Shown piece by piece: positions 11,998 to 15,571 of a DNA stretch of 64,000 bases; positions within the stretch are counted from its first letter, which is position 1, and each line of letters begins with the position of its first letter. The position numbers and the translations under genes were made by a program. The notes beneath the pieces were generated by a model, which was not told where the DNA came from, did no database searches, and was given only the letters and a program-made list of their open reading frames with translations. Origin of the DNA: Centipeda noxia ATCC 43541 (GTDB lineage Bacteria; Bacillota; Negativicutes; Selenomonadales; Selenomonadaceae); assembly GCF_000160555.1 (NCBI RefSeq), contig NZ_GG749281.1, forward strand, positions 225,955-289,954. The letters are read 5' to 3'.

Positions 11998-13359
11998 TTA
12001 TTCCTGCACCGGCACAGGCAATCCGCGCCAATCTCCGAGGCCGCCCGCAAAGAGCGAGGTCTCCTCATTATAGTAGTCGATGAATCCGTCGACGAGCTCG
12101 TGGCCGCGCGTATCGCTGACCATGAAGGGCTGGTAGAAGTTCTTCTCCTCCTGCTCAAAGTTCGCCCACGTCATGAGATACGGGATATGATGACGCCGCG
12201 CGACGGCTGCCGCCGCACTCGTCCAATGCGGATCGTCATTGCCCGTGAGCGCGAGCCCGCCGCCGTTTTTATGAACGCCGACCTCGGTGAGCGCGGGGAG
12301 TTTGCCGTGCGCATCCGCTGCGGACACAACCAGCGCCGCCGCATGCTCGAGCCGCTTCAAAAAGGCGGGCGTATCGTCGTCATCGTCGTAGAAGTCAAAG
12401 CCGAATACGTCCACATACGCATCGCCCGGATAGCGGTCGAGATAGTCCTCCGCCGATGAGAACGGCGCGTTCGGCGCATAGACGTAGAGCGCATTGTGCA
12501 CGCCGCGCACATCGCGCAGATAGTGGACCGTGTACTGCCAGAGCGCAGTGTAGTCCGCGCCGTCCGTCCCCTTTACGCCCCACCAGAACCAGTCTCCGTT
12601 GTGCTCATGGAGCGGGCGAAAGAGTATGGGGATGCCGCGCCTCTGCATGCGCAGCAGAAAATCCGCGACCATATCGAGGTAGGCCGTATAGACCGGATGC
12701 AGATCGCCGCCCGGAACGGCGCGGTGCAGAACATGCCCCGAGAGATCGTCCGGCGAATAGCCCGAAAAGTCATAACCGCCGGCCGCCTGCGGACGCTTTG
12801 CCGCGCGCGCGAGGTTGGGGATGTGCATGGAGAGCGTCAGGATCGCGCCCTCATTCGACGCCTCCGCCGCGATGCGCTCGAGTTTGTCCGCGCAGCTCAT
12901 GCCCGCCGCGCGCTCCGCATCGGTCAGCTCCAGCTCCTCACCCGTCAGCGAGAGTGCGTCGAGCCCGACAATCCCTGCGAGTGCGCCCGTCATGTCCTTC
13001 GTATCGGAGTTCGTACCGCTGTCGATGCGAAAAAATTTATGATGCGCATCGTTCTGATGTCCGTAGATCGTGTACTGCAGCTGCCCGAGCGCTGTAAGAT
13101 ACGCATAGAGCTGCCGCGTCTCCGCCGTCGCCGCCGCATCGGCGAGATGCACCGTCCGCGGAGCAGCGGCGCGGAGCGTCTCGAGTGCCGGTGCGTCGCG
13201 GCGCGCCTTTGCCGCGTCGGGCAGAACCGTCCGCGCCCGGTAGACAGGATCCGCCGGATCATCCACGGGATGTGCAGCGGCAGAGAGCGGCATGAGTCCG
13301 AGCAGAGCGCCGATCAGGGCACATGCGCGCATTGCCCCGGCAAAAGTTGAATATATCAT
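11998..13359 (-). CDS. Secreted glycoside hydrolase family 26 (endo-beta-1,4-mannanase-like)
   Basis: The 453-residue protein has a signal peptide (MIYSTFAGAMRACALIGALLG..., cut after AAA near residue 29) and a single GH26 barrel. The acid/base Glu sits in RPLHEHNGDWFWWG. The nucleophile Glu is in LTEVGVH. QLQYTIYGHQND is the usual family entry. The start at 13359 has AGGAGG 7 nt upstream. It should cut mannan-type beta-1,4 links (or a related beta-glycan) outside the cytoplasm. No carbohydrate-binding module or transporter is beside it. Confidence 0.88.
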   Translation of the reverse strand: MIYSTFAGAMRACALIGALLGLMPLSAAAHPVDDPADPVYRARTVLPDAAKARRDAPALETLRAAAPRTVHLADAAATAETRQLYAYLTALGQLQYTIYGHQNDAHHKFFRIDSGTNSDTKDMTGALAGIVGLDALSLTGEELELTDAERAAGMSCADKLERIAAEASNEGAILTLSMHIPNLARAAKRPQAAGGYDFSGYSPDDLSGHVLHRAVPGGDLHPVYTAYLDMVADFLLRMQRRGIPILFRPLHEHNGDWFWWGVKGTDGADYTALWQYTVHYLRDVRGVHNALYVYAPNAPFSSAEDYLDRYPGDAYVDVFGFDFYDDDDDTPAFLKRLEHAAALVVSAADAHGKLPALTEVGVHKNGGGLALTGNDDPHWTSAAAAVARRHHIPYLMTWANFEQEEKNFYQPFMVSDTRGHELVDGFIDYYNEETSLFAGGLGDWRGLPVPVQE

Positions 13360-13387
13360 TCGATTTCCTCCTTTGCAGATATTATAG

Positions 13388-13424
13388 CACAAAAAAACAC
13401 CCGCTCCCGTGGGAGTGGGTGCCC
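13388..13424 (-). terminator. Terminator of the first small secreted-protein gene
   Basis: On the minus strand CACCCaCTCCC pairs with GGGAGcGGGTG (one mismatch), followed by seven T. It lies 16 bp past the stop at 13440. A closely similar hairpin follows the paralogue at 13904. Confidence 0.8.
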
Positions 13425-13439
13425 TATGATCTCCGAATA

Positions 13440-13715
13440 TCAGGTGTTCTTCGCAATGATCGCGCCAACGACAGCGCCTGCGATGGCGGCCGTAGTCATG
13501 CTGCCCTGCGAGTAGCGCTTGCCGCCGCTCTTGCGCCGTCCGCCCCATGCGAGCTGCTGAACATCATTGCGTCCGTCAAAGCTCGTGTACGATGCGCGCT
13601 CTGCCGGCACGCTGAGCGCGTGCGCGGATACCTCGGCCACGCCTGCGGCACCGTAGCTCATGGCGCCGACAATCGCGGCGATTGCAGTCCGCTTCATCAT
13701 CTTTGTTGTCATCAT
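13440..13715 (-). CDS. Small secreted protein, paralogue 1
   Basis: The 91-residue product has a Met-rich signal peptide (MMTTKMMKRTAIAAIVGAMSYG, cut near VSA). A conserved ASYTSFDGRNDVQQLAW segment and a short basic GGRRKSGGKR linker follow. The C-terminal glycine/alanine helix SMTTAAIAGAVVGAIIAKNT could insert in membrane. The start is ATG at 13715 with AAAGGA 11 nt upstream. A GTG three codons earlier is too close. It is a tandem copy of the gene at 13904. No known family is recognised. Confidence 0.75.
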   Translation of the reverse strand: MMTTKMMKRTAIAAIVGAMSYGAAGVAEVSAHALSVPAERASYTSFDGRNDVQQLAWGGRRKSGGKRYSQGSMTTAAIAGAVVGAIIAKNT

Positions 13716-13821
13716 GTGAACCACATCCTTTCAAACGGCTTTGCCGCTGTGCACTTCTTTGGTACAAGTAGAGCATACGACGCGCGCATGGGAAATACAT
13801 TCGAACGGAATTTAATTTTCG

Positions 13822-13838
13822 TTAGGAGTTGCTCCTAA
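13822..13838. promoter_or_regulatory. Palindromic element upstream of secreted paralogue 1
   Basis: TTAGGAG-TTG-CTCCTAA is a perfect 7-bp inverted repeat about 107 bp upstream of the gene. A diverged version (TTAGGACTTACTGCTAA) lies at the same relative place before paralogue 2, so the element has been kept after duplication. Confidence 0.5.
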
Positions 13839-13855
13839 ATTTTATCACTGTATGA

Positions 13856-13888
13856 AAAAGCACCCGTTCCCGTGGGATTGGGTGCTCT
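13856..13888 (-). terminator. Terminator of secreted paralogue 2
   Basis: On the minus strand, GCACCCaaTCCC pairs with GGGAacGGGTGC, then CTTTTT. It occupies the same position relative to its gene as the terminator at 13388. Confidence 0.7.
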
Positions 13889-13903
13889 GCCGAACGGGAC
13901 AGC

Positions 13904-14272
13904 TCATATGCTCCTCGCAATGATCGCACCGATCACGGCGCCGGCGATCACAGCGGTGTTGATGCTGCCCTGCGAGTAGCGCTTGCCGCTCCGGCGGCGG
14001 TCATTGCGGTGATCGCGGTCACGGTCGCGTTCCCAACGCTCCCGATCGCGCCGGTCACGATCACGTTCCCAGCGGTCGCGGTCGCGATCACGGCGGCTCT
14101 TCCACGCGAGCTGCTGGACATCATCGCGTCCGTCAAAGCTCGTGTACGATGCGCGCTGCTCCGGCACGCTGAGCGCACTCGCAGAGACCTCAGCCACACC
14201 TGCAGCGCCGTAGCTCATGACGCCGACCAGCGCTGCCATCGCAGTCCTCTTCATCATCTTTGTTGTCATCAT
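13904..14272 (-). CDS. Small secreted protein, paralogue 2, with Arg/Asp repeat insert
   Basis: The 122-residue product shares signal peptide, the ASYTSFDGRDDVQQLAW block and the C-terminal SGKRYSQGS...AIAGAVIGAIIA helix with the gene at 13440. In place of the short linker it carries about 35 residues of charged repeats (units such as RDRDRWE and RDRRDRERWE, residues about 60-95). The repeats probably grew by slippage at repeated CGATCGCG-type DNA. It has its own terminator and a conserved upstream element, so the two genes are independently expressed duplicates. The function is unknown. Confidence 0.75.
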   Translation of the reverse strand: MMTTKMMKRTAMAALVGVMSYGAAGVAEVSASALSVPEQRASYTSFDGRDDVQQLAWKSRRDRDRDRWERDRDRRDRERWERDRDRDHRNDRRRSGKRYSQGSINTAVIAGAVIGAIIARSI

Positions 14273-14377
14273 GCGGATCGCATCCTTTCAGACGGCGCTG
14301 CCGTCAACTTGTCGCTGTTTCTGGGGACAGAATACGATGCGCATATGGGAAATGGATATAAGATGAATTTAAGTTCC

Positions 14378-14394
14378 GTTAGGACTTACTGCTA
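14378..14394. promoter_or_regulatory. Semi-palindromic element upstream of secreted paralogue 2
   Basis: TTAGGACTTACTGCTAA is an imperfect inverted repeat. It matches the perfect palindrome upstream of paralogue 1, with shared flanking text (TCGTTAGG / CCGTTAGG and AATTTTTA). Confidence 0.4.
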
Positions 14395-14432
14395 ATTTTT
14401 ATGGCTGCATAAAATGACGGGAGGACACGGCG

Positions 14433-14567: not shown

Positions 14568-14593
14568 GATAATCCCTTGATTTCTCCAATAAA

Positions 14594-14638
14594 ATGACCG
14601 CCGGTCATATTTGCTGACATTATATGACTGACGGTCAT
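14594..14638. promoter_or_regulatory. Two TetR-type operators flanking a -10 box
   Basis: The perfect palindrome ATGACCG-C-CGGTCAT (14594-14608) and the near-perfect ATGACTG-A-CGGTCAT (14624-14638) have centres 30 bp apart, about three helical turns. A minus-strand TATAAT (14619-14624) lies between them. The layout is that of a repressor controlling the stub gene at 14433. Confidence 0.7.
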
Positions 14639-14712
14639 TTTTATCGAATCGATAGGAATTTGTGGGATACCGTGATCGTATATGAGGATCCTCTCTGCCC
14701 TGGCGGGACAGT

Positions 14713-15330
14713 CTATTTGTGCTCCCGATACCACTGTGCCTTTCCTCGGAGCACATCGCCGCCGCGCGTGCCGTCCTCTGCCCAGGGGCGAAAGGCGGGG
14801 CTCTCGTGCGTGCCGAGGTACTCAAGGTCCCATCGCTCGCATGTCGAGCGCGGGCCGTAGGGGGCATGGGCGCGCACACCGTCCTCGTTGTCGGCCGCCT
14901 CGCCGTGCGTCAGGATGCGCGCCTTGTCGATCGTCAGCCAGAGGCCGTCCGCAAGCGCCGTCACCGCCATCGCCATGGCCTCGATCTGCGCGGCCGTCGG
15001 TGGCTCCGCGCCGAGATGTTCCGTCGTTGCACCACAGGCTCCGAGAACGGCAACGCTCACACTCCCGCTGTTGCGCCGATAGGTCGCGGCGAGCAGCACA
15101 TCAAGCGCACCATCGCCGATCACATAGAGCGTACCGTCCGCGTCGATCTGGACATGATAGTCCGCGAAGAACTGCCCGTAGTGCCCCGCCGTCCAGTGGA
15201 GGTATATCTTCGTCTCACGCGCGCACTGCGCAGCGGCATAATAGAGGGCGGGGCGGTATGCCGCGGCAAGGTTTTTTAGTTCCGCGCAGGTCACGCGCCG
15301 CATGGCCGATGCGGGCAGCACCGCGCTCAT
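14713..15330 (-). CDS. Phage-type N-acetylmuramoyl-L-alanine amidase (endolysin)
   Basis: The 205-residue protein has an amidase_2/PGRP domain. LHWTAGHYGQ gives the first zinc His (residue 45), YHVQI the next (residue 59), and GTHESPAFRPWA near residue 175 the distal zinc region. There is no signal peptide, as usual for endolysins released by a holin. Its start overlaps the stop of the upstream 57-residue membrane protein by 4 bp, so the two are translationally coupled as a lysis cassette. No other phage genes are nearby, so it is a remnant or a domesticated module. Confidence 0.8.
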   Translation of the reverse strand: MSAVLPASAMRRVTCAELKNLAAAYRPALYYAAAQCARETKIYLHWTAGHYGQFFADYHVQIDADGTLYVIGDGALDVLLAATYRRNSGSVSVAVLGACGATTEHLGAEPPTAAQIEAMAMAVTALADGLWLTIDKARILTHGEAADNEDGVRAHAPYGPRSTCERWDLEYLGTHESPAFRPWAEDGTRGGDVLRGKAQWYREHK

Positions 15331-15500
15331 CGCGGCGCCTCCTTCTCGCCCCGCATCATGACCGTGCGCCCGAGAAAGCCGATCAGCCCCGAGGCGATGT
15401 TGCTCGTCAGCTCCGCGCTCCCATAGAAGACGGACAGGATCGCAACGACGACGAGCCCTGTCCCGACCATCCAGTCCACGCGCGGCAGATAGTTTCGCAT
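15327..15500 (-). CDS. Small membrane protein, probable holin-like partner of the endolysin
   Basis: The 57-residue protein has one clear membrane segment (MVGTGLVVVAILSVFYG), a second weaker one (SNIASGLIGFLG), and a charged tail (RGEKEAPR). The start at 15500 has AAAGGAG 7 nt upstream. It overlaps the amidase start by 4 bp. Size, topology and coupling fit a holin, but no family is recognised with certainty. Confidence 0.6.
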   Translation of the reverse strand: MRNYLPRVDWMVGTGLVVVAILSVFYGSAELTSNIASGLIGFLGRTVMMRGEKEAPR

Positions 15501-15506
15501 AAAAAT

Positions 15507-15571
15507 TCTCCTTTCCGATCTTACAGATGTTCCTTCCATAGAAGTAACTGCTGCAAAGATCGAAAAGGAGA
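15507..15571. repeat. Imperfect inverted repeat upstream of the lysis pair
   Basis: Arms TCTCCTTTCCGATCTT (15507-15522) and AAGATCG-AAAAGGAGA (15556-15571) pair with one mismatch around 33 nt. The left arm contains the ribosome-binding site of the holin-like gene, so a hairpin in its leader would sequester it. Confidence 0.5.

Follow-up and report, generated by a model that had tools for sequence, protein, structure and literature searches.

A tandem gene pair of Centipeda noxia and a little-known family of small, predicted exported proteins with a near-fixed membrane-like tail and a highly variable charged middle

Two small genes lie side by side on one strand of the stretch of Centipeda noxia ATCC 43541 DNA analysed here (64,000 nucleotides, hereafter the window), with an amidase gene on one side and a glycosyl hydrolase family 26 gene on the other. 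The question raised by this locus is what kind of protein such a pair encodes and whether similar proteins are found elsewhere. The first-pass annotation had described two paralogues with a common signal peptide, an SFDGR-DVQQLAW block and a C-terminal glycine zipper, and both reading frames were found on the minus strand as described (Table 1). Judged from sequence comparison, gene 1 and gene 2 encode small, predicted exported proteins of a little-known family, in which a near-fixed membrane-like tail is combined with a charged middle that differs greatly between members. The existence and anatomy of the family can be accepted with very little doubt, while the mechanism considered below is tentative.

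Table 1. Features of the tandem gene pair and its surroundings (positions in the window)
Feature	Positions	Strand	Basis
Gene 1, exported protein of 91 aa ending in GAIIAKNT; 13712 is a second in-frame ATG	13440..13715	-	sequence
Gene 2, paralogue of 122 aa with R/D/E/W insert, ending in GAIIARSI	13904..14272	-	sequence
Gene 1 signal peptide, predicted cleavage after ..AEVSA	13623..13715	-	simple rules, not a signal-peptide program
Gene 2 signal peptide (predicted)	14180..14272	-	simple rules
Gene 1 SFDGRNDVQQLAW block; DVQQLA core recurs in other genera	13545..13583	-	family comparison
Gene 2 SFDGRDDVQQLAW block	14102..14140	-	family comparison
Gene 2 charged insert RDRDRDRWERDRDRRDRERWERDRDRDHRNDRRR	13991..14092	-	repeat search and codon comparison
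Gene 1 C-terminal module YSQGSMTTAAIAGAVVGAIIAKNT (glycine zipper)	13443..13514	-	profile searches, tail column counts
Gene 2 C-terminal module YSQGSINTAVIAGAVIGAIIARSI	13907..13978	-	profile searches
Gene 1 upstream palindrome TTAGGAGCAACTCCTAA, perfect; related sequence upstream of genus orthologues	13822..13838	-	folding, alignment
Gene 2 upstream counterpart TTAGCAGTAAGTCCTAA, imperfect palindrome	14379..14395	-	folding, alignment
Gene 1 intrinsic terminator (hairpin and T run)	13392..13425	-	duplication and folding; missed by simple scan
Gene 2 intrinsic terminator (hairpin and T run)	13855..13888	-	duplication and folding; missed by simple scan

The paralogy is visible in the DNA, at 82% over 233 nt and 80% over 86 nt, and the duplication includes 86 nt of upstream sequence (74%) and 34 nt of terminator (88%). 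The dN/dS ratio between gene 1 and gene 2 was 0.22, and a third, more distant paralogue was located in the same genome (G000:C18:502393-502674). The extra Arg, Asp, Glu and Trp residues described for gene 2 were present, but their net number is 31 (122 vs 91 aa) and not about 35. The duplication of the downstream terminators was borne out, with strong folding of both copies (z -3.4 and -4.4). The duplication of the upstream palindromes was borne out only in part; a related sequence stands upstream of both genes, but the gene 2 counterpart is imperfect and does not fold (z -0.3, against -6.1 for the gene 1 palindrome).

As neither the upstream region nor the terminator is shared between them, gene 1 and gene 2 may be expressed separately. 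No sigma-70-like promoter was found for either gene on the minus strand by a simple scan, which also missed both terminators. A palindrome regulon was considered and none was seen: with up to two mismatches allowed, the pattern occurred at two places in the genome, which were these two genes with 0 mismatches each, the pattern itself having been drawn from these two sequences, and a reversed control pattern gave 7 genome matches. The intergenic DNA ahead of gene 2 contains a 20-nt inverted repeat at 14591-14641, with arms 90% complementary and an 11-nt gap, which gives the impression of a regulator's operator.

Searches for described relatives of the whole protein returned little. No Pfam or NCBIfam model fitted the whole protein in scans of the window proteins and their relatives, no relative was found among solved structures (best E 0.45), and Rfam at gathering scores gave two tRNAs and nothing else. 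Literature searches, judged by title and the start of the abstract, contained no paper on this family among the matches listed. The NCBIfam model mini_HHHH (NF040554) resembled the signal-peptide half of two relatives, but the scores were 19.5 and 14.3 vs a cut-off of 40, and the tail was not reached.

Relatives themselves were readily found. The 122-aa protein as query gave matches in 37 of 60 related genomes (E <= 0.1, weak ones counted), including Selenomonas infelix, S. flueggei, S. felix, S. artemidis and Centipeda periodontii, together with Mitsuokella, Pectinatus, Megamonas and S. ruminantium. S. flueggei, a close relative of this genome, is now listed as Centipeda flueggei (Selenomonadaceae, Negativicutes) in the NCBI taxonomy. 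Many of the species named here are oral. A profile built from the 34 C-terminal positions (A2) matched 64 of the 189 genomes of the window's family and 86 of 380 class genomes, and in a phylum sample of 398 genomes it matched 10. Nine of these ten belonged to the window's family, and the tenth, from outside it, was a weak match over 14 positions in a 429-aa frame. With a broader profile that includes the tails found with A2 (A5), 97 of the 380 class genomes were matched, comprising 64 of the window's family, 23 of f15, 7 of f4 and 3 elsewhere. Among 14 genomes of the same genus, two (G002 and G006) had no match in the A2 or A5 searches. In the searches made, the family thus appears essentially confined to Negativicutes. 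The proposal of a new small-protein family finds partial support in its presence in many Negativicutes and in the lack of a whole-protein Pfam or NCBIfam match, while the envelope location proposed with it draws on the rule-based signal peptide and the tail. An invariant repeat length together with a lack of homologues would have counted against the first-pass reading; homologues exist outside this locus.

Several outlying sequences were observed besides the main set. A second group (L100-L106, from G028, G181, G188, G180, G175, G185 and G183) consists of small proteins (frames of 155-197 aa) whose middle is rich in Glu, Arg and Lys, and it matches the first profile over the last 16-17 positions only. 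Two copies in G003, at C10:31737-32020 (L122) and C4:14598-14993 (L108), have their signal-peptide and tail parts in different frames and look broken or affected by sequencing errors. Moreover, L023, L029 and L035 are secreted proteins with Arg/Glu/His-rich middles and ends like EIAALVLGVVIGHNT, and they are possible distant relatives.

The conserved part of the protein is its end. Among the fetched loci, 143 frames (79 distinct) reached 15 bits, and the profile match lay no more than 14 residues from the frame end in all 143 and further inside in none. By simple rules, 72 of the 79 distinct frames were split into signal peptide, linker and tail, and 7 were set aside. The tail pattern is approximately TAAIxGAVxGAxIAKNT, with a small residue at every fourth position. 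The match reached the last residue in 59 of the 72 members, corresponding to 42 distinct tails, and all 42 had Ala at -4, Ala at -7, Gly at -8 and small residues at -11 and -12, with a small residue at -16 in 41 and mostly Ile or Val between, although the counts include related members, some of which went into the profiles, and are therefore neither independent trials nor clear of circular reasoning. On the pattern of its residues, the tail is a glycine zipper with two small-residue stripes (-4, -8, -12 and -16; -7 and -11). No Cys was present in the mature part of any of the 72 members.

How such a tail relates to a membrane is less certain. The best 19-mer had a mean hydropathy of at least 1.6 in only 27 of 72 members. 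Since the tail is short and weakly hydrophobic, its membrane insertion is uncertain, and the tail may be a peripheral element or one that relies on oligomerisation. The stretch before the tail was net positive in 34, neutral in 7 and negative in 18 of 59 members, and gene 1 is strongly basic there, which counts against a simple N-out/C-in inner-membrane anchor. A 1370-aa frame in G001 was considered as a large protein carrying the tail and rejected; it ends in unrelated sequence and gave no 15-bit match.

The middle of the protein varies as freely as the tail is fixed. The linker measured 14-178 residues (median 45.5) in the 72 members, the genome sets containing one genome per species and the variation therefore lying between species; the length-variable charged segment anticipated by the first-pass annotation is thus found across species. 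Charged residues together with His and Pro made up a median of 57% of the linker, and its composition ranged from Lys/Arg-rich, as in gene 1, to Arg/Asp, Glu/Arg and His/Pro. The net charge was positive in 43 members, zero in 10 and negative in 19. The SFDGR-DVQQLAW block was also followed beyond the pair, and its core recurs in other genera in variants such as EVQELA, EVTQLA, YQELS and similar, which are present in many Selenomonadaceae members. A motif picked after viewing the sequences, [QT][QEK]L[AS], occurred in 29 of 71 distinct linkers, compared with a mean of 0.29 and a maximum of 3 in 1000 shuffles.

From this comparison, the R/D insert of gene 2 is one case of the family-wide linker variability. 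The insert contains a 36-nt unit repeated 2.0 times at 82% match (14016-14086). Across 42 codons spanning it, Arg is encoded by CGC (11), CGT (5) and CGG (3), and Asp by GAC (6) and GAT (4). As the units are only 82% alike and the Arg and Asp codons are mixed, these data argue against a fresh perfect array that slips readily. In an AlphaFold2 model, residues 49-96 form one helix, with block means of 75-92 for residues 51-90; AlphaFold2 often draws charged repeats as helix. The model was poor overall (mean pLDDT 61.6, pTM 0.30), and its C-terminal helix (102-121) had low confidence, with block means of 48-59.

The nearest described kind of protein, on sequence grounds, is the two-helix glycine zipper 2TM domain PF05433 (Rick_17kDa_Anti), to which SlyB belongs. 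In both cases a small-xxx-small helix occurs in small exported proteins, and the family tail has a small residue every four positions in a hydrophobic segment. In several members a weak match covers positions of about 19-41 of the 43 in the profile. Neither gene 1 nor gene 2 gave a match, the best score in other members was 19.9 bits against a cut-off of 24.2 bits, and 1 of 29 aligned members was matched at E 0.01. Unlike PF05433 proteins, the family has one zipper segment, placed at the extreme C terminus, and no lipobox; the second half of the profile alone aligns, and the low-confidence model contains one C-terminal helix and not two consecutive zipper helices. The curated PF05433 cut-off was exceeded in 2 of 60 relatives, by sequences elsewhere in those genomes. 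Accordingly, the family is not a member of PF05433 by the tests made, and it may work like PF05433 proteins.

The whole mechanism that we favour, to which we would give slightly less than an even chance, is that of exported, membrane-associated peptides that form zipper oligomers and expose a polyampholyte linker within the envelope. A Sec-type signal peptide, predicted by simple rules, would direct export of the cysteine-free mature chain, after which the tail would enter or lie on an envelope membrane and pack into oligomers by way of the face that carries the small residues. In the periplasm or at the surface, the linker would then form a polyampholyte brush that might bind anionic envelope polymers such as LPS and peptidoglycan. 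Linker length would be tolerated and not measured, and the R/D insert of gene 2 would give a longer brush of denser charge.

The strong conservation of the tail relative to the rest of the protein could also be explained if the tail were a processing or sorting signal, in which a motif, a short hydrophobic stretch and a short polar end are cut or anchored by a dedicated enzyme. PEP-CTERM-like signals similarly place a short conserved C-terminal motif and a hydrophobic stretch after variable sequence. The match ending at the stop codon in most members, the terminal NT in all 42 distinct tails that match to the stop, and the match of the last 16-17 positions to the second, Glu/Arg/Lys-rich group all agree with such a signal. 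However, sorting tags are carried by many proteins that are unrelated and often large, whereas this tail was seen on small low-complexity proteins only, all A5 matches at E <= 1e-6 lying in frames of up to 281 aa. The terminus is also not invariant; 13 of the 72 members end otherwise, including gene 2, which lacks the terminal KNT (ARSI vs the consensus AKNT), and 4 run on for 9-14 residues past the match. We consider a sorting signal unlikely.

If the linker were instead the active part and the tail only its anchor, the proteins could buffer metals or acid in the periplasm by means of His, Asp and Arg. His/Pro-rich linkers occur in several relatives, and the relative L017 exceeded the cut-off of CbtA (PF09490; 31.5 vs 30.7 bits, E 2e-7), with CbtA matched at E <= 0.01 in 3 of 29 members. 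But the match falls on a His-rich stretch and is likely compositional, the linker chemistry is not conserved, and neither window protein, both with very little His, matches CbtA. Buffering is regarded as about as improbable as sorting.

A lower probability is assigned to a secreted antimicrobial or self-acting membrane peptide of the bacteriocin kind, that is, a basic mature peptide with a GxxxG helix. The gene 1 mature peptide, of about 60 residues, is basic and contains GAVVG, and L134 weakly matched a putative bacteriocin family (15.6 bits vs a cut-off of 40). In contrast, 19 of the 72 linkers are net acidic and a further 10 neutral, no recurrent immunity or transporter gene adjoined the loci in a crude gene calling, and gene 1 is under purifying selection by its substitution rates and has counterparts in many species, unlike most bacteriocins. 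Specifically, of 11 pairs with gene 1, ten had a dN/dS of 0.13-0.30, dS being saturated in one of them, and the ratio was undefined for the eleventh.

The neighbouring genes offered no common partner. Among 47 loci, of which at least three are the same place under two names, clustering of crudely called genes in windows of up to 15 kb gave no neighbour shared by the family as a whole. Radical-SAM genes with a CofH/MqnC C-terminal domain were near 12 of the 47 loci (ten labelled S. ruminantium and two others) and, like the amidase gene in the window's genus, are a lineage-specific neighbour. Next to the amidase gene, which is directly upstream of the pair (14713-15330, minus strand), lies a 70-aa reading frame with a hydrophobic stretch (15327-15539, minus strand), overlapping it by 4 bases, and by sequence the two look like an endolysin/holin pair. 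A phage-derived, spanin-like lysis accessory tied to this amidase is very improbable: the amidase matches the endolysin family phrog_5867 (1.3e-31) and amidase DNA stands upstream in 6 of the 8 loci of the genus that were compared, but the N-terminal lipobox Cys of a unimolecular spanin is found in 0 of 72 mature proteins since none has a Cys, PHROG gave no match for gene 1 and a weak low-complexity match for gene 2 (E 0.083), and other genera have different neighbours.

The nearest counterparts of gene 1 are those of S. flueggei and S. felix, each of which has a single gene at this place. As dS is 0.59 between the paralogues and 0.11 between gene 1 and S. flueggei, the pair looks older than the split from S. 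flueggei, and a recent tandem duplication was rejected on the same values. The 5' flank of the single gene is nearer gene 2 (118/130 and 117/130 vs 96/124 and 97/124 to gene 1), whereas its coding start (144/150 vs 129/150) and its 3' flank (112/117 vs 69/94 and 68/94) are nearer gene 1. The simplest reading of these alignments is that one copy was lost by recombination between older tandem copies; a tandem duplication whose copies evolved at uneven rates is a possible alternative. A crossover at the ribosome-binding site was considered and set aside, the bases shared there occurring in other genus members too. In G012 (L124), 100-base bins over 12000-13499, which cover the glycosyl hydrolase gene and reach into gene 1 at its 3' end, were 91-99% identical to the window, and the bins at 13500 and 13600, inside gene 1, were 80% and 73% identical. 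A recombination border inside gene 1 is therefore likely from this comparison, as a second sign of recombination at the locus.

A wider picture may be drawn for diderm Firmicutes, although we think it improbable: class-specific single-segment zipper peptides would build oligomeric envelope patches in the role that SlyB-type two-helix proteins have in other diderms, with the tail assembling the patch and hypervariable linkers, renewed by duplication and recombination, setting what it binds. Diderm Firmicutes have many outer-membrane proteins to which no function is assigned; in the outer-membrane protein list of Veillonella parvula given in PMC5491611, this applies to 28 of 78. The family offers a compact handle on that envelope. 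It occurs in roughly one in four of the 380 class genomes, with a near-fixed tail and a freely varying linker, and thus provides a natural experiment in the evolution of charged variable segments on a fixed anchor.
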